Positions 1,409-58,692 of a DNA stretch of 64,000 nucleotides are shown here, in pieces. Source of the DNA: Hoeflea sp. (GTDB lineage Bacteria; Pseudomonadota; Alphaproteobacteria; Rhizobiales; Rhizobiaceae); NCBI RefSeq assembly GCF_002733955.1, contig NZ_NVXQ01000007.1, positions 492 to 64,491 on the forward strand. Reading direction: 5' to 3'. A program made the translations under genes and the position numbers. Position 1 is the first letter of the stretch; each line of letters opens with the position of its first letter. The notes under the pieces were generated by a model. That model was not told the origin of the DNA. It did not search any database and worked only from the letters and a program-made list of their open reading frames with translations.

Positions 1409-1846
1409 ATGAGAGATTCGAGCAAGCTCGGTGCAGGCCAAGTTCTGGCCGAAGCGATTTGCCCGTTTGCCGGCGTGGCCGGCAGCCTCGGACTGGCGTT
1501 CATCGCAGTACGGGACGACGATAACAAGGATGCGGTCGCCAAAGGCGCGACGCCGTTCGCCGGCGGCGAAAGCGACAGCGCGATTTATCAGCCGACGGTT
1601 TTGACAAATGCGACCCAGGAGATGCGGATCTTCAAGGCGGAACCGTTTGGCCCGGTGAAAGCCATCTCTCGCTTCGGTACAGAGGACGAAGCGTTGGCGA
1701 GGGCGAACAACACCGAGCGCGAGGCGCAGATGCCATTCGGTGGCCTCAGCGGCTATGGTCGTTTTGGCGGCAGGGCGGCGATCTGCGAGCTTACCGATTT
1801 GTGCTGGATCACGATCGAAGGTCCGAACCAGCACTACCCGATCTGA
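1409..1846 (+). pseudogene. Decayed aldehyde dehydrogenase (vanillin/salicylaldehyde type)
   Basis: An open frame of 145 residues that only matches the C-terminal part of an aldehyde dehydrogenase. DAVAKGATPFAGG and MRIFKAEPFGPVKA match the region after the catalytic cysteine, and EAQMPFGGLSGYGRFGG plus LCWITI match the C-terminal end of aromatic-aldehyde dehydrogenases. About 45 residues that normally lie between these blocks are missing, and so are the cofactor domain and catalytic Cys, so it cannot be active. The first 30 or so residues match nothing I recognise. It is probably a deletion remnant of the enzyme that oxidised the aldehyde made by the decarboxylase just downstream. Confidence 0.75.
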
Positions 1847-1866
1847 TCGCGTTTCAGGAGTAGGAC

Positions 1867-3576
1867 ATGAGCCAGGACGACAGTCGCATCACGGCAGGCG
1901 GCGCCATTTTCACGAAGCTGAAGGCGCTGGGTGTGGATTATGTCTTCGCCAATTCCGGAACCGATTTTCCGCCGATTGTCGAAGGCCTGGTCGAGGCAGC
2001 GCAGAAGAACATCGAACTGCCCACGCCTATCGTCATTCCGCATGAACATGCGGCAATGGGGATGGCGATGGGGTATTACGAGATCTCCGGGCGTTGCCAG
2101 GCGGTGATGCTGCACACCAATGTCGGCCTTTCCAACGGAGCGACCGGCGCCATCAACGCGGCATGTGAACACGTGCCTGTGCTGATGATGTCCGGGCGCA
2201 CGCCGGTGACCGAGGAGACTCGCTTCGGGGCACGGACCGTTCCGATCGGCTGGGGCCAGGAAATGCGCGACCAGACCGCGCTGGTGCGCGAGGCGAGCAA
2301 ATGGGACTATGAGCTGAAGTTCCCCGAACAGATCTCGGGCGTGCTCGACCGGGCCTATGCGATTGCCAATTCGACACCGAAGGGCCCTGTCTATCTCTCG
2401 CTGCCGCGGGAGACGCTGTGCGAGGAAATTCCACGGGCGGGCACCAGTGACCCGAGCTCGATGCAGCCGGCGGGTATCGGCATCCTGGAAAAGGATATCC
2501 GGGCTGCCGCATCTGCGCTCGCTACAGCGAAACGCCCGCTGGTGATTGCCCAGCGCGGTGCCGGGGATGAAAGAAGCTATGCGCTGTTTGGCCAATGGGC
2601 CGAGGAATGGGGCATTCCGGTGTGTTCCTGGTGGGCGACGCATCTGGCGATCGATACGGATCATCCGTGTCATGTCGGAGAAAGCCCGAGTCCGTGGCTG
2701 GAAGAGGCCGACGTGGTGCTGGTGCTTGATTGTCTGGCGCCGTGGTGGCCCGACAAGCACAAGCTGCCGGATGATGCCTTTGTCATCAATATGGGCCCCG
2801 ATCCGCTGTTCAGCCGGTTCCCGATCCGCAATTTCCGCTCCAACCTGTCGATCGCCGGTGAGAGTTCGGACACGATTCCGGCGCTTGTGGCGGCGATGGC
2901 GGCGATTGGCGGAGATGAAGAGATGATTGCCGCGCGGCGGGCGCGGGTGGCGGAAAAATCCCAGGCCAACCGCGACAGGCTGGCGTCTGAAGCCGAGGCC
3001 TCGACCGCCAAGGGGATCACCAAGCAATGGGTCAGTGCCTGTCTCGGTGAAGAGCTGAAGGGCATGAAATCCACGGTCTATTCGGAGCTCGGGGTCAAGC
3101 TCGGCACACTTGAGCGCAAGGGCCACAATGCGTGGTTTCAGGAACCGCATTCGGGCGGTCTGGGATGGAGCTTTCCGGCGGCACTCGGCGGTCAGCTGGC
3201 GGATCGTGACCGGGTGATGGTGGCGACGATGGGGGACGGGTCCTACATCTTCTCCAATCCGACTGCCTGCCACCAGATTGCCGAGGCGCTGGGACTGCCG
3301 GTGCTGATCATCGTGCTCAACAACCGGGAATGGGGCGCGGTGCGCCAGTCGGTGGTGGGGACCTATCCCAATGGTTACGCAGCGCAGGCCAACGAGGTGC
3401 CGCTGACATCGCTCGACCCGACGCCGGATTTCGTGCGGGTGGCGGAGGCAAGCCGCGCCTGGGCGCGAAAGGTCGACCGGCCGGAGGATGTGCCGGGCGC
3501 CATCGCGGCGGCACTTGAGGTGATTTCGGATCGCAAACAGCACGCGCTCCTGGAAATCAGCATCCTGAAGGATTGA
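1867..3576 (+). CDS. Thiamine-pyrophosphate enzyme (2-oxoacid decarboxylase/acetolactate synthase family)
   Basis: A 569-residue TPP-dependent enzyme of the acetolactate synthase/benzoylformate decarboxylase superfamily. The catalytic glutamate is in HEHAAMGMA (Glu60). The C-terminal TPP/Mg motif runs from GDG (456-458) to NN (485-486). AGGAG precedes the ATG. It is followed four bases later by an FMN-dependent 2-hydroxyacid dehydrogenase. By analogy with mandelate degradation, the pair could oxidise a 2-hydroxyacid to a 2-oxoacid and decarboxylate it to an aldehyde. The substrate is unknown, and a carboligase role is also possible. Confidence 0.8.
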   Translation: MSQDDSRITAGGAIFTKLKALGVDYVFANSGTDFPPIVEGLVEAAQKNIELPTPIVIPHEHAAMGMAMGYYEISGRCQAVMLHTNVGLSNGATGAINAACEHVPVLMMSGRTPVTEETRFGARTVPIGWGQEMRDQTALVREASKWDYELKFPEQISGVLDRAYAIANSTPKGPVYLSLPRETLCEEIPRAGTSDPSSMQPAGIGILEKDIRAAASALATAKRPLVIAQRGAGDERSYALFGQWAEEWGIPVCSWWATHLAIDTDHPCHVGESPSPWLEEADVVLVLDCLAPWWPDKHKLPDDAFVINMGPDPLFSRFPIRNFRSNLSIAGESSDTIPALVAAMAAIGGDEEMIAARRARVAEKSQANRDRLASEAEASTAKGITKQWVSACLGEELKGMKSTVYSELGVKLGTLERKGHNAWFQEPHSGGLGWSFPAALGGQLADRDRVMVATMGDGSYIFSNPTACHQIAEALGLPVLIIVLNNREWGAVRQSVVGTYPNGYAAQANEVPLTSLDPTPDFVRVAEASRAWARKVDRPEDVPGAIAAALEVISDRKQHALLEISILKD

Positions 3577-3580
3577 ACCC

Positions 3581-4726
3581 GTGGCAGACCTGAGCGCGAC
3601 CTATCCGGCAGTCTCCGATTTGCGCCGGAAGGCACGCCGGCGTATCCCGCATTTCGCCTATGAATTCATGGATGCGGGAACCGGTCAGGATCACACATTC
3701 GCGCGCAACATCGCTGATCTGGAACGGGTGCAGCTGTCGCCGCGGGCGTTGCGAGGTCCGGTGGCGCGAGATCTGTCGACAGTGTTTCTGGGGCAGCGTT
3801 ACGATGCGCCATTCGGCATGGCGCCGGCGGGCGGGACCGGCATGATCTGGCCTGGCGGCGAGTGCATTCTGGCCGAGGTCGCGGCAACGTCAGGCGTGCC
3901 TTACACACTGGCCAGTGTTGCCACGCAGACGCCTGAAGTCATCGGGCCGATTGCGGACGGACGGGGCTGGTTCCAGTTCTACCCGATGGCCGACAAGGAG
4001 ATCCAGAAAGCCGTGCTGCGCCGTGCGCAGGAGGCGGGCTTTGAAAACCTTGTGGTGACGGTTGATGTTCCGAAGATGTCGCGGCGCGAGCGGCAGATGC
4101 GGGCCGGGTTCCAGATGCCGCCGCGGCTGACCCCGCGGATGGTGCTGCAGGCGCTGGCGAACCCGGGATGGACACGGGCGATGCTTCAGACCGGGCGCCC
4201 GGAACTTGCGACGCTGACGCCCTATTTTGCGCATGTCCCAGCTGCAGACAGGATGGCTGAAATCGGCAGGCAATTGCATCCCGAACCAGGCTGGGACGAA
4301 GTCGAGCGGATCCGAAAGGTCTGGCGCGGAAAGATCATCCTGAAAGGTATCATGCACCGTGACGATGCGGTGATGGCGCTGGACAAGGGCGCTGACGCGA
4401 TCTGGGTGTCCAACCATGGCGGGCGGCAGCTCGACGCAGCGCCGTCGGCGATATCGGTGTTGCCAGGTATCCGAGCCGCCGTGGGCAATGACGCGGCGAT
4501 CATTTTCGACAGCGGTGTCCGGTCCGGCCTCGATATTGCCCGCGCAATAGCCAGCGGGGCGGATTTTGTCATGCTCGGGCGGCCGTTTCTCTACGCGCTG
4601 GCCGCAGGTGGCAAGGACACCGTGCAGCTGTGCGTGCGCATTCTCAGCGATGAACTTGAAAACGTCATGGCGCAGGTCGGGGCACAATACCCGGCAGACT
4701 TGCCGCTGGCGCTGGTCAGGACCTGA
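3581..4726 (+). CDS. FMN-dependent alpha-hydroxy-acid dehydrogenase/oxidase
   Basis: A 381-residue TIM-barrel flavoenzyme of the lactate/glycolate/mandelate dehydrogenase family. It contains the active-site segment SNHGGRQLD (catalytic His about 279, flavin/substrate Arg about 282), the FMN-phosphate segment FDSGVRSGLDIARA, and APAGGTGM near residue 90. The start is GTG, four bases after the TPP enzyme stop, so the two are co-translated. The expected reaction is oxidation of an L-2-hydroxyacid to a 2-oxoacid, with electrons passing to quinone or oxygen. The long central loop makes membrane association possible, but no clear membrane segment is seen. Confidence 0.85.
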   Translation: MADLSATYPAVSDLRRKARRRIPHFAYEFMDAGTGQDHTFARNIADLERVQLSPRALRGPVARDLSTVFLGQRYDAPFGMAPAGGTGMIWPGGECILAEVAATSGVPYTLASVATQTPEVIGPIADGRGWFQFYPMADKEIQKAVLRRAQEAGFENLVVTVDVPKMSRRERQMRAGFQMPPRLTPRMVLQALANPGWTRAMLQTGRPELATLTPYFAHVPAADRMAEIGRQLHPEPGWDEVERIRKVWRGKIILKGIMHRDDAVMALDKGADAIWVSNHGGRQLDAAPSAISVLPGIRAAVGNDAAIIFDSGVRSGLDIARAIASGADFVMLGRPFLYALAAGGKDTVQLCVRILSDELENVMAQVGAQYPADLPLALVRT

Positions 4727-4775
4727 ACGGACAGGTTATGAGTTTGCAGGCAATCAGGTTCAAAGGGGGCACTGC

Positions 4776-5690
4776 ATGAAGATCGCTATCTTGGGCGCCG
4801 GGGCACTGGGGTCGGTGATTGGCGGGTTGATGGCCGAGCAGGGCATCGATGTGTGCCTGCTTGATGTGAACCATGCCCATATTGATGCGATCAACACGTC
4901 GGGCCTGCAGCTCGACAGCCCGGAAGGGAGCCGGCGGATCGCGATTTCCGCCATGCGGCCGGAGCAATATCCCGGCGATGTCGAACTGATCATCCTGCTG
5001 ACCAAGATCTTTCACACCGAGGCGGCCCTGGCTGCGGTGCAGCCGGTCATAGACGCTGGCGCGCGGGTGCTCACCATCCAGAACGGCCTGGGCAATGCCG
5101 AGCGGGTGGCGCGGCGGGTTCCCGAGGCGCAGATCCTGATGGGATCAACGATGATCCCGGGCGGCTATCTCGGGCCGGGCCATGTCTCGTCGGCGGCGCA
5201 AAGCTGGACCGTGTTCAAGCCGATACTGGATGCCGAGATTGCCGAGGCCGAAGCCATCGCAAAAGTGCTGGCGCCGGTAGGATTCAGGTATTCGGCCGAT
5301 GCCGAGGCGCAGATCTGGCAGAAGGCGGCGTTCAACTGCGCCATGAATGCGACCTGTGGACTGATTGGCGCGCGGGTTGCTGCGATATCAGCCGACCCTC
5401 AGGGGAAGGGGCTGGTGCGGGCGATCGCGGATGAGGTCATTGCCGTGGCGCAGGCCAAGGGAGTGGCGGTCGAGCGGGACGCGGTCTATCAGCATCTGGA
5501 TGTCGCCTTGGCCGAACACACCGCGCACAAGCCATCGATGCTGCAGGATCTGGAAGCGGGCCGCGAAACGGAAATCGAGGCACTGTGCGGCGAGGTCGCC
5601 CGGCAGGCGGCTGCGCTGAAGCTACACGCGCCGCTGAACACGGCACTGGCTACGTTGATCGGCATGAAATCACGCGCCGCTTCTGCCTGA
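4776..5690 (+). CDS. Ketopantoate reductase family protein (ApbA/PanE-like)
   Basis: A 304-residue NAD(P)-dependent reductase of the 2-dehydropantoate 2-reductase family. The N-terminal Rossmann fold begins MKIAILGAGALGS. The C-terminal helical domain has the catalytic Lys in WQKAAFN and the substrate-binding segment HKPSMLQDLEAGRETEIEAL. The frame is open further upstream, but ATG 4776 is preceded by AAGGGGG at a good distance and starts the conserved fold. Because it sits with a hydroxyacid dehydrogenase and a decarboxylase, it may reduce a 2-oxoacid in that pathway rather than make pantoate. Confidence 0.8.
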   Translation: MKIAILGAGALGSVIGGLMAEQGIDVCLLDVNHAHIDAINTSGLQLDSPEGSRRIAISAMRPEQYPGDVELIILLTKIFHTEAALAAVQPVIDAGARVLTIQNGLGNAERVARRVPEAQILMGSTMIPGGYLGPGHVSSAAQSWTVFKPILDAEIAEAEAIAKVLAPVGFRYSADAEAQIWQKAAFNCAMNATCGLIGARVAAISADPQGKGLVRAIADEVIAVAQAKGVAVERDAVYQHLDVALAEHTAHKPSMLQDLEAGRETEIEALCGEVARQAAALKLHAPLNTALATLIGMKSRAASA

Positions 5691-56167: not shown

Positions 56168-56929
56168 CTAGTCGGCATAGCCGGGGTTTTCCCGGTCGAG
56201 CACATGTTTCATTTCCTCGAAATGCGAGAATTCGGCGTCCTTGTAGACTTCCCATTCGCGAGCCACGGATTCGGCCAGGTCATCGCTCATCACGTTGAGC
56301 GGCTGGCCGGTCGAGTAAGCCAGCACCATGGTCCGGGCGGCGCGCTCGAGATGGTACATGGCGTCAAAGGCTTCGGCGACCGTGCGGGCCACGGTGGTTA
56401 CGCCGTGATTGGCCATCATGACGTTGGAATAATTGCCGATGGAAGCGGCGATGCGCTCGCCTTCGGCCTCGTCATTGGCTATGCCGCCGAAACTCATGTC
56501 CATCGCCAGCCGGTTGAAGAACCGGGCGGTGGTCTGGTCGATCGGCTTGATCGAGGGATCTTCCAGTCCGGCAAGGGCGGTGGCGTGCGGCGGGTGCAGA
56601 TGCAGCGCCACCCGGGCATGCGGCACCCGGCGATGAATGGCGCCATGGATCGACCAGGCCGACGGATCGGGCGCATCGGGCCGGTTCATGGTTTCGGGGT
56701 CATCCGCGTCGATGAGGAGCAGTTCACTGGCCTTGGCGCGGGAGAAATGTTTCCAACGCGGGTTCATCAAGAACTTCTTGCCGTCCGGAGAAACCGCGGC
56801 GGAGAAATGGTTGGCGACACCTTCGTGCCAGTCGTAATAGGCCGCCAGTCGGAGCGCGGCCGCGAGGTCTATGCGAAGTTGGCTCTCGTCGCTGCTCGCA
56901 AGCGGCAGGACGTTGGCTGATGTGGTCAT
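56168..56929 (-). CDS. Class II aldolase/adducin family protein
   Basis: A 253-residue zinc-aldolase-fold protein with N-terminal EGVANHFSAAV and zinc ligands in ALHLHPPHATALAG (about 108-121) and VMMANHGVTTVA (about 169-180). Family members are aldolases, dehydratases or demethylases such as fuculose-phosphate aldolase. No step of reductive pyrimidine catabolism needs one, yet it lies between hydA and the carbamoyl hydrolase. The function here is unknown. Confidence 0.85.
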   Translation of the reverse strand: MTTSANVLPLASSDESQLRIDLAAALRLAAYYDWHEGVANHFSAAVSPDGKKFLMNPRWKHFSRAKASELLLIDADDPETMNRPDAPDPSAWSIHGAIHRRVPHARVALHLHPPHATALAGLEDPSIKPIDQTTARFFNRLAMDMSFGGIANDEAEGERIAASIGNYSNVMMANHGVTTVARTVAEAFDAMYHLERAARTMVLAYSTGQPLNVMSDDLAESVAREWEVYKDAEFSHFEEMKHVLDRENPGYAD

Positions 56930-56959: not shown

Positions 56960-56997
56960 CCCCTCCCCCTGGAGGGGAGGGGCTAGGGGTGGGGGGC
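56960..56997 (+). repeat. GC-rich palindromic repeat, copy 1
   Basis: A perfect hairpin, CCCCTCCCC (56960-56968) and GGGGAGGGG (56974-56982) with a five-base loop, followed by a G-rich tail ending at 56997. The 35 bases from 56963 match copy 2 in inverted orientation at 30 positions. It borders the DUF559 gene. Confidence 0.8.
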
Positions 56998-57004
56998 ACA
57001 CTGA

Positions 57005-57373
57005 TCATTTCATCAGCCCCAGTTCATTCAGTATTTTCTCGATGCAGGCATCAAAGGACCCTGCCAGTTCGCCGGTATTGAACCGGATCACGCTGTAGCC
57101 GGCTTCTGCCAACCACGCATCGCGCTTCTTGTCCCGGCTTGTTCCCGCCGGGGTGAAATGATGCTCTCCGTCCACCTCTATGACAAGCCTGACTGAGTGG
57201 ATGGCGAAGTCTGCAACATAGGGGCCTATCGGTGTCTGCCTGCGGACGTGGAGTCCGTAGAGTTTCCTGAAGTCCTTCAAGGCCTGCCAAAGCCGCTTTT
57301 GACCATCGGTCATGGTCCGGCGAAGCTGGCGCGCCCGCAACAGGGCCCCGGGTGAATTCAAGCTTGGTGACAC
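57005..57373 (-). CDS. DUF559 (Vsr-like) endonuclease-domain protein
   Basis: A 122-residue protein of the DUF559 family, related to very-short-patch repair and restriction-like nucleases. It shows RARQLRRTMTDGQKRLWQAL, RRQTPIGPYVADFAIHS, the catalytic-type LVIEVDGEHH (about residues 70-79) and YSVIRFNTGELAGSFDACI. GTG 57373 places it just inside the repeat; ATG 57442 would add 23 residues encoded by the repeat (including PPSPWRGG) and overlap the pydC stop; ATG 57313 would cut into the domain. The biochemical role of DUF559 is not established. Confidence 0.78.
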   Translation of the reverse strand: MSPSLNSPGALLRARQLRRTMTDGQKRLWQALKDFRKLYGLHVRRQTPIGPYVADFAIHSVRLVIEVDGEHHFTPAGTSRDKKRDAWLAEAGYSVIRFNTGELAGSFDACIEKILNELGLMK

Positions 57374-57379
57374 AATGAG

Positions 57380-57416
57380 CCCCCCACCCTCGATCCCTCC
57401 CCTCCAGGGGGAGGGA
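57380..57416 (-). repeat. GC-rich palindromic repeat, copy 2 (inverted)
   Basis: CCCTCCCC (57396-57403) and GGGGAGGG (57409-57416) form a perfect hairpin with a five-base loop, flanked by GCCCCCCACCC from 57380. Its reverse complement matches copy 1 over 35 bases with five mismatches grouped in the middle. Confidence 0.8.
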
Positions 57417-57441
57417 GGGTTGCTCGGTGCACCTGGCACCA

Positions 57442-58692
57442 TCACTCCACCACCCCGGCCGTCTCGACCACCGCATGCATGAGCACGTCGCAGCCGGCGC
57501 CAGCCCATTCCTTGGTGATTTCCTCGGCTTCGTTGTGGCTCAGCCCGTCCACACAGGGGCACATGACCATGGCGGTGGGGGCGACGCGGTTGATCCAGCA
57601 GGCATCGTGACCAGCACCGGAAATGATGTCCATGTGCGAATAGCCGAGCCGTTCGGCGGCATCGCGGATCGCCTTGACGCAAGTATGGTCGAATTCCGGC
57701 GGGTCGAACTGGCCGACGATCTCGGCCTCGAAGCTGACGCCGAGTGCATCGCAGAGTTTCGGCGCTTCTTCCATCAGCCGGTCGACCATGCCGTTGAGCG
57801 TATCGAGTTCATGGCTGCGGAAATCGATGGTGAAGACCACCTTGCCCGGAATGATGTTGCGGGAATTGGGATAGACGTCGATATGGCCGATCGCGCCGAC
57901 CGCGTTCGGCGCATTGTCCATTGCGATCTGGTGCACCAGCTCGGTGATCTGGGCCAGGCCGCGACCGGCATTCAGCCGCATCGACATCGGCGTCGATCCG
58001 GTGTGGCTTTCCTTGCCGGTGACAGTGCATTGCACCCAGCGCAGGCCCTGGCCGTGGGTGACGACGCCAATGTCCTTGCCCTTGGCCTCGAGGATCGGGC
58101 CCTGCTCGATGTGCAGCTCGAACAGCGCATGCATCTTGCGGGCTCCCACCTCCTCGTCGCCCTTCCAGCCGATGCGCTCGAGCTCGTCGCCGAAGCGCTT
58201 GCCCTTGGCGTCGACCTTGTCATAGGCCCAGTCCTGGGTGTGGACGCCGGCAAACACGCCTGATGCCAGCATGGCCGGGGCAAAGCGGGTGCCTTCCTCG
58301 TTGGTCCAGTTGACCACGACGATTGGGTGTTTGGTCTTGATGTCGAGATCATTCAGCGTCCGGACCAGTTCGAGACCTGCGAGCACGCCGAGCACGCCGT
58401 CATATTTGCCCCCGGTCGGCTGGGTGTCGAGGTGGGACCCCACATAGACCGGCAGCGCATCGGGGTCGGTGCCGGGGCGGGTCATGAACATGTTGCCCAT
58501 GGTGTCGACGCCCATCGACATGCCGGCCTGTTCGCACCATTTGCGGAACAGATGCCGGCCTTCTCCGTCTTCGTCGGTCAGCGTCTGGCGGTTGTTGCCG
58601 CCGGCGACGCCGGGCCCGATCTTGGCCATCTCCATGAGCGAGTCCCACAGCCTGTCGGCGTTGATGCGAAGGTTGGCGGCGGGTGCGGACAT
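57442..58692 (-). CDS. pydC: N-carbamoyl-beta-alanine amidohydrolase (M20 zinc hydrolase)
   Basis: A 416-residue M20-family amidohydrolase releasing ammonia and CO2 from N-carbamoyl-beta-alanine to give beta-alanine. Metal and substrate motifs are VGSHLDTQPTGGKYDG (about 84-99), NWTNEEGTRFAPAM, LHIEQGPILE, ISGAGHDACW and DGLSHNEAEE. It lies between mmsA and hydA in one operon and fits the third step of reductive pyrimidine breakdown. Allantoate or L-carbamoylase activity is the main alternative. Confidence 0.88.
   Translation of the reverse strand: MSAPAANLRINADRLWDSLMEMAKIGPGVAGGNNRQTLTDEDGEGRHLFRKWCEQAGMSMGVDTMGNMFMTRPGTDPDALPVYVGSHLDTQPTGGKYDGVLGVLAGLELVRTLNDLDIKTKHPIVVVNWTNEEGTRFAPAMLASGVFAGVHTQDWAYDKVDAKGKRFGDELERIGWKGDEEVGARKMHALFELHIEQGPILEAKGKDIGVVTHGQGLRWVQCTVTGKESHTGSTPMSMRLNAGRGLAQITELVHQIAMDNAPNAVGAIGHIDVYPNSRNIIPGKVVFTIDFRSHELDTLNGMVDRLMEEAPKLCDALGVSFEAEIVGQFDPPEFDHTCVKAIRDAAERLGYSHMDIISGAGHDACWINRVAPTAMVMCPCVDGLSHNEAEEITKEWAGAGCDVLMHAVVETAGVVE

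Follow-up and report, generated by a model that had tools for sequence, protein, structure and literature searches.

The locus analysed here raises the question of whether a small gene enclosed by two inverted hairpin repeats is a peculiarity of one genome or one copy of a more general mobile system, and, if the latter, what its gene and its repeats do for each other. The window, as the whole 64 kb stretch of DNA that was analysed is called below, carries this arrangement once, between two host genes (Table 1). A preliminary description made from the sequence alone had taken the gene and its repeats for a possible undescribed mobile unit and had pointed to REP sequences and their RAYT transposases as a parallel.

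Table 1. Features of the unit in the window and of the genes on either side (positions in the window; PIT, potential intrastrand triplex motif)
Feature	Position	Strand	Remarks
Whole unit, PIT - DUF559 gene - PIT	56960..57418	.	in the spacer that separates the M20 family stop codon from the aldolase gene start
PIT module preceding the gene	57380..57415	-	hairpin CCCTCCCCCTGGAGGGGAGGG, then third strand GAGGGTGGGGGG toward the gene
DUF559 (Vsr-like) nuclease gene, nuclease by prediction	57005..57373	-	probable GTG start (judged by eye), 122 aa
Inverted PIT module following the gene	56961..56996	+	hairpin CCCTCCCCCTGGAGGGGAGGGG, then third strand AGGGGTGGGGGG toward the gene
Upstream host gene, peptidase M20 family (pydC of the preliminary description)	57442..58692	-	its end lies 23-26 nt from the unit
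Downstream host gene, class II aldolase	56168..56929	-	served to find the same junction in relatives

The inverted arms (56961-57003 and 57373-57415) are 43 nt each, with 84% complementarity and a spacing of 369 nt, and by eye the two repeats agree at about 31 of 36 positions, so that the earlier count of 30 shared bases in 35 held. Their 19-nt palindromic core (56962-56980 and 57396-57414) does not differ between the copies and, with up to 3 mismatches allowed, has just these 2 matches in the window; shuffled controls gave a mean of 0.18 matches, and two matches were reached in 2 of 100 shuffles. The flank inverted-repeat score of the locus was 22, the 99th percentile and maximum for 863 other ORFs of the fetched loci being 13 and 26. 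No terminator-like site was found in the window unit, and a search for known RNA families gave one match there, far below its threshold. Unusual hairpin stability as a hallmark of the repeats was not supported by folding energies, since the window hairpins folded no better than dinucleotide shuffles (z of -0.17 and -0.54).

The enclosed ORF matched DUF559 in Pfam (PF04480, E 9e-28), as had been claimed; MTES_1575 also matched, below the cut-off. Judged by eye, translation probably starts at the GTG at 57373, which is kept in the window genome (G000) and in the relatives G009, G010 and G016. With this start and the gene end at 57005-57007, 8 and 6 nt separate the gene from the repeats. The preliminary description had also noted that the repeat can be read as protein (PPSPWRGG) from the pydC stop. 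The ATG needed for this overlaps the pydC stop in G000, G010 and G016 and is ATA in G009 (by eye). Because the ATG is absent in G009 and the GTG is kept in all four genomes, the peptide reading is not conserved and is probably unused.

The DUF559 family is large, and functional assignments within it are very few. A model of the window protein (pLDDT 90.4, pTM 0.84) was compared with known folds using Foldseek. The best match was a Neisseria protein, 3hrl (E 2e-5), which was also the sole sequence match of the window protein among solved structures. The catalytic domain of the homing nuclease I-Bth0305I (3r3p, E 1.8e-3) stood at rank 3, and the Vsr structures 1vsr (E 3e-3) and 1cw0 matched as well, 1vsr, 1cw0 and 3r3p together spanning E 1.8e-3 to 4.8e-3. 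The TIGR00632 vsr profile gave only a weak match (E 0.052). Residues D55, E66, D68 and H72 were invariant in 48 aligned family members. By its fold and its conserved acidic/histidine site the window protein is thus predicted, on the strength of a model, to be a Vsr-like PD-(D/E)XK nuclease; that it cuts DNA is inferred. A transposase of the RAYT type, Y1/HUH (IS200/IS605-like), was ruled out by the Pfam DUF559 match and the Vsr-like fold. As a separate observation, rank 2 was taken by a mitochondrial ribosome protein of Toxoplasma (E 3e-4), and a Vsr-like fold is common to several such proteins (ranks 2, 4 and 7).

The window genome contains 3 DUF559 genes, and in 3 of 3 the nearest hairpin lies within 100 nt of the domain, in one of two layouts: hairpins flanking both sides, or an inverted pair before the gene. 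The reading of the unit as a one-off curiosity of this window was dropped because repeats were found at all three genes. In a wider survey, a pyrimidine-purine hairpin was counted if it lay within 300 nt upstream or 220 nt downstream of a DUF559 domain. Among relatives, hairpins were found at 72 of 79 domains vs 43 of 839 other ORFs of the same loci (80 DUF559 matches in 61 genomes, one at a contig start in G038 being left out). The phylum set gave 59 of 62 vs 31 of 239 and a set of named loci 77 of 80 vs 32 of 280, and the share of other ORFs with a hairpin was 5-13% across the three sets. Hairpins on both sides occurred at 36 domains in the relatives, 36 in the phylum set and 58 in the named set, with 3, 4 and 0 among the respective controls. 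The phylum domains, drawn from a capped set of matches, mostly from its upper part, and spread over genomes, are not a random sample; the named set comprised the best 80 of 535 confirmed loci, picked by two conserved peptide patterns. The scope of the survey excludes phyla such as Actinomycetota.

A first strict regular expression had found 59 of the 79 domains in relatives, variants being missed, and a stem-8 detector gave 105 of 141 DUF559 domains vs 66 of 1075 control ORFs; a wide alignment was judged too variable for a genome scan. Hairpin density was 3.45 per kb in the 300 nt upstream and 0.01-0.08 per kb at 2-9 kb. A motif-free inverted-repeat score exceeded the control 99th percentile at 58 of 77 scored domains vs 1.6% of control ORFs. 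Three of the seven domains in relatives that lacked a hairpin sit in open frames of 932-1099 aa; the length of an open frame is not that of a protein, and some hairpin-bearing domains also lie in long frames. A further 12 named loci were drawn from 40 of 44 matching plasmid-collection records and 2 phage records, 11 of them from the plasmid collection (three on chromosome-sized records) and one from a phage contig. With a permissive pattern and no control, 11 of the 12 had hairpins within 260 nt, including loci of Synechocystis, Picosynechococcus, Pseudanabaena, Deinococcus and Neisseria.

Hairpin and DUF559 counts per genome were correlated (rho 0.66, 37 genomes), with a median of 23 hairpins in the 24 genomes that have DUF559 and 1 in the 13 that do not; DUF559 matches numbered up to 10 per genome. 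Three of the 13 genomes without DUF559 were hairpin-rich (20, 64 and 83). The last two of these, G037 and G041, may hold orphan repeats or repeats with another partner protein. In the window genome 4 of 19 distinct hairpin sites adjoin a DUF559 gene (by eye), most sites lying elsewhere. The orientation of neighboring genes around the units did not differ from control. The association of DUF559 with the repeats was strong in the window genome, in its relatives, in the phylum and beyond, with hairpins also present away from DUF559, and the original observation was right and far more general than the window.

Escherichia coli K-12 has a case of its own. The gene ycjD is annotated as DUF559, and a PIT that is one of the 23 E. 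coli K-12 motifs lies at 1351204-1351239, 168 nt past the end of ycjD; a decayed PIT overlaps the ycjD stop codon (by eye). One place covering at least 80% of the ycjD stretch was found in 3362 of 5426 E. coli genomes and none in 2064 of 5426; in one strain of the latter group, different genes stand upstream of fabI. A Nissle-derived strain could not be used as a clean ycjD empty site because its neighborhood upstream of fabI differs. In the K-12 locus (L336, 5041-5828) a partial duplicate of the ycjD 3' end was seen between ycjD and the PIT. Two further settings were recorded in passing. In Candidatus Binatia and Nitrospira MAGs, two distant groups, DUF559-PIT units stand directly behind or in the end of an HsdS-like gene that reads as a type I specificity subunit (L261 and L268, by eye). 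On plasmids of Synechocystis sp. B12 (L338 and L341, about 1683-5090), DUF559 genes with hairpins adjoin gene parts annotated as DUF1156 and as BREX PglX methyltransferase, an arrangement that looks like insertion into such genes.

By eye, the 5' arm of each window repeat is pyrimidine and the 3' arm purine, and a G-rich stretch comes next on the side of the gene. By this architecture, a hairpin with a G-rich third strand, the repeats belong to the known orphan class of potential intrastrand triplex motifs (PIT, TM); triplex formation itself is inferred. The motif has been described in E. coli and more than 260 genomes (Holder et al. 2015, PMC4666352). The name box C appears in the same paper and belongs to what we take to be the same element. 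For the E. coli motif a triplex was shown in vitro, and no stable triplex was found in double-stranded DNA or in vivo (PMC4666352). Holder et al. found no mobility function around the motifs and left their mechanism and origin unexplained, and no associated gene is named in the abstract or discussion of that paper. The preliminary interpretation as a mobile unit was supported, with corrections: the repeat is of a known class, which the preliminary description had not recognised, and mobility is inferred only.

Both window modules had a similarity of 0.88 to the closest of 11 E. coli TM motifs (11 of the 23 were used, and 4 of 334 modules were left out), and 229 of 330 modules reached at least 0.85. 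The scoring is permissive, 120 shuffled modules giving a median of 0.71 and a maximum of 0.86. Gamma-proteobacterial modules beside DUF559 (Dyella L273, Pseudomonas L281 and L306, Microbulbifer L265) scored 0.89-0.92 against the E. coli motifs. If the triplex shape is important, the tag should mirror the purine arm whatever the sequence of the stem. Near 221 DUF559 domains 334 modules were found, 29 of which were excluded from the third-strand count because the tail or the arm was short or the arm had no A. Within 70 nt, 196 of the 305 usable modules carried a full mirror of their purine arm, A being accepted opposite A or T. Permuting the arms among modules gave a mean of 55.8 (sd 6.1, maximum 73, 200 rounds), and shuffling the tails gave 2.8. 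Examples of stem and third strand are GGGAGAAGG with GGATGAGGG, GGGGAGAGG with GGTGAGGGG, GGGGAGGGG with GGGGTGGGG and GGGGGAGA with AGAGGGGG, and the rule was also obeyed by stems other than CCCTCTCCC. The third strand thus co-varies with the stem as its mirror image. The modules are not independent, because types are common to related loci.

These data bear on the possibility that the repeats are host elements (terminators, RNA stabilisers or sites of instability) near which DUF559 genes insert or survive without any functional recognition. In its favour, PIT-like hairpins occur without DUF559 in some genomes, most sites in the window genome lie away from DUF559, and repeats of this type in Enterobacter sp. 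638 have been suggested to be terminators (PMC2869309). However, framing on both sides, mirror co-variation and the matching of repeats to protein subfamilies (below) would not be expected of passive neighbours, the window unit lacks a terminator-like site, and an earlier study cited by Holder et al. (PMC4666352) found PIT motifs without promoter or terminator activity. We consider this explanation unlikely.

Whether the repeat type follows the protein type was assessed with DUF559 genes that have a sister gene in the same genome. The most similar DUF559 protein encoded in another genome, where the flanks are not homologous, served as reference for each, and the repeat of this reference was compared with the gene's own repeat and with the sister's; a win means that the own repeat was the closer one. 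With wide windows, the own repeat won in 27 of 34 cases at a protein similarity of at least 0.55 (14.0 expected) and in 14 of 15 at 0.65 or more (6.6 expected); thresholds of 0.50 and 0.60 gave 28 of 36 (15.0 expected) and 21 of 24 (9.8 expected). A first run with narrow windows and no threshold had been weaker, with 39 wins, 2 ties and 17 losses in 58 cases (about 22.8 wins expected); its Mantel correlation of 0.142 exceeded that of free permutations (maximum 0.103) but not the within-genome maximum of 0.151. Before the second run the windows were widened, loci were added, a similarity threshold and inverse matches were introduced, and near-equal sister genes were excluded. The runs kept 130 of 141 and 204 of 221 domains; those dropped were short fragments, 3 domains within long open frames and loci close to a contig end. 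The pairs are not independent, as one reference locus can serve several tests. A correspondence between repeat and protein similarity at unrelated sites is present in these data; that related DUF559 proteins carry related repeats as a rule is likely, on evidence that is good and not final.

According to another explanation, DUF559 proteins perform Vsr-like mismatch repair for solitary cytosine methyltransferases, as proposed for VsrA of Caulobacter, and the repeats are incidental. The Vsr-like fold speaks for it, with no more than the weak TIGR00632 match from the profile, as does the link between the DUF559 protein VsrA and the methyltransferase ScmA (Matthey et al., PMC12907096). It leaves unexplained the framing by PITs, the presence of several DUF559 copies per genome and the matching of repeats to proteins, and as a general account we regard it as very unlikely. 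A host repair role like that proposed for Caulobacter VsrA remains possible for some DUF559 members.

The limits of the unit were examined by aligning pairs of units whose surroundings are not homologous. Many of these alignments stop within the gene. The test counts only those ends that extend to a hairpin, and of these 91 of 108 on the left and 98 of 124 on the right lay within 10 nt of its outer edge, and in 26 of 35 ordered pairs both ends lay within 12 nt of it, so that homology reaching the repeats mostly ends at the outer PIT edges. Two copies in G256, about 5.7 kb apart, share 86% identity over 589 nt, the left end lying 21 nt beyond the hairpin, and units with unrelated flanks were found in distant groups (L262, L263 and L276). 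These limits show the unit and not its mode of movement, because the unit is the only conserved stretch between unrelated neighbours.

Of the 18 genomes in the genus, 14 had a readable junction of pydC and the aldolase gene (13 through a pattern and G002 by eye); in G003, G004, G008 and G012 it was not located. DUF559 was present at 5 of the 14 junctions, all with hairpins, the unit being of the window's type in G000, G009, G010 and G016 and of another type in G014. Of the nine junctions without DUF559, that of G011 retains the remnant of a PIT, that of G005 has a single short palindrome resembling a PIT, and seven have no hairpin marked (G007, G013 and G002, with almost no spacer, and G001, G006, G015 and G017). 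The unit thus varies between presence and absence. The preliminary description would have been refuted by DUF559 genes standing here without repeats in all related strains, or by repeats scattered with no association to DUF559; neither outcome occurred. In G001, G005, G006 and G011 (L145, L146, L147 and L139) the spacer that contains the DUF559 unit in the window is taken up by a small ORF, whose translation begins with MSPAT, MSPAA or MSPST (by eye). At the next junction, between the aldolase gene and hydA, two further cassette types were seen by eye, differing between relatives; in G001 and G004 one type apparently lies within the PIT remains of the other, and G008 has two inverted PITs about 120 nt apart, too close to hold the gene.

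Gene-less pairs of PITs also exist. The window genome has three inverted PIT pairs, one beside the C10 DUF559 gene and the others bare, and all have nearly identical 37-nt ends and a variable middle. At the first bare-pair site, viewed in 16 of 18 genomes (all except G004 and G007), the element is present in G000, G009 and G001; the pair in G003 belongs to a different type, and G011 has just one hairpin. At the second (11 of 18 genomes matched) G000 and G016 carry it, and the copy in G009 has an internal deletion. At the site orthologous to G000:C2:127.5k, where G000 and G016 carry the PIT pair, G011 and G002 (L372 and L376) have a different inverted element with ends like GGGGACAGTTTACTTT. 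No target-site duplication or exact empty site was seen by eye at the two bare-pair sites and the two operon junctions, the sequences having diverged; filled and empty junctions differ also beside the unit, so the limits are inexact. Mobility is accordingly an inference from the present/absent patterns and the limits of homology, without data on movement or cleavage.

The main rival to an independently mobile repeat system is a homing-type cassette, in which DUF559 would be a free-standing homing nuclease that cuts PITs or unit-free sites, with the PITs serving as homology arms for gene conversion; bare PIT pairs would then be deletion derivatives or by-products and not an independently mobile population. 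Most predictions are common to both readings. The match to the I-Bth0305I catalytic domain favours homing, as do the apparent nesting of one cassette in a PIT of the other type at the aldolase-hydA junction of G001 and G004, the different cassette types at the same junction in different relatives (both by eye), the inverted PITs of G008, between which a gene would not fit, and the lack of any target duplication seen. On the other hand, homing alone fails to explain bare PIT pairs at sites where most viewable relatives show no PIT pair, and units with unrelated flanks in distant groups also speak against it. It remains a possible explanation.

The parallel with REP/REPIN-RAYT systems, whose features were taken from PMC3116915 and PMC3733652, held in anatomy: a single gene is framed by or adjoins its own subfamily-specific repeats, and there are gene-less pairs. 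In both, palindromic repeats are tagged on one side, form inverted pairs with variable middles, and occur elsewhere singly and paired. REPIN-like doublets, with conserved ends and a variable middle and also away from the gene, are represented by the three pairs of the window genome, and the match of repeat family to partner protein family was seen in the second cognate run (27 of 34 and 14 of 15) and more weakly in the first. The partner, however, is a Vsr-like DUF559 nuclease here and a Y1/HUH transposase there, and in place of GTAG the tag here is G-rich and mirrors the purine arm; no GTAG was seen by eye in the two window modules. REP/REPIN sequences usually exceed 100 copies per genome; the window genome has 24 loose matches, and by such loose counts copy numbers seem mostly lower (0-151 per genome in 37 genomes, above 100 in 3). 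With PIT/TM/box C elements (PMC4666352) the repeats share their architecture, the difference being the nuclease partner proposed here; with Vsr and I-Bth0305I the protein shares its predicted fold and differs in being encoded by a stand-alone gene, often in several copies, framed by PITs. CGTC-tagged REPs are alpha-proteobacterial palindromes said to lack a dedicated transposase (PMC3733652), and their stems and CGTC tag are unlike the repeats found here. A CGTC-like palindrome was seen by eye near one DUF559 gene (L321); DUF559 as a partner of these REPs is no more than an idea.

We favour, with moderate confidence, the reading that the unit in the window is one member of a widespread selfish repeat system resembling REP/RAYT, whose sole protein is the Vsr-like nuclease DUF559 and whose ends are PITs; cleavage and spread are inferred. 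DUF559 would recognise its own PIT, which is probably folded at that point and either single-stranded or exposed by replication; this step is proposed because of the association, the co-variation and the subfamily match. It would then nick or cut this PIT, and host repair would copy the unit or a bare PIT pair elsewhere, older PITs sometimes serving as the target. We do not suppose that DUF559 carries out the integration itself, since no Vsr-like nuclease is known to join DNA. A bolder version, for and against which we find the case evenly balanced, gives DUF559 proteins throughout the bacteria the role of dedicated enzyme for the PIT/TM triplex repeats. The system would then be a counterpart of RAYT-REPIN that evolved independently, with a Vsr-like nuclease reading a three-stranded fold and spreading its own gene together with gene-less pairs.

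A link between DUF559 and these repeats was absent from the titles and abstract starts searched in the open-licence literature, which is no proof of absence because only open-licence papers were covered. The pairing of gene and repeat recurs in many bacteria, which suggests the DUF559 nuclease as the so far unidentified partner of repeats with no explained origin. Such a link would give a testable role to both the family and the repeats, and the question of why PITs exist and move would become a biochemical one with a named enzyme. No repeat-spreading systems of this class other than RAYTs are known to us; if the proposal is true, a second, unrelated kind of enzyme joins the class. The instability of PITs may then be driven by an enzyme and not be a passive effect of DNA shape, and the bolder reading, if true, would explain the genome instability reported at PIT/TM repeats.
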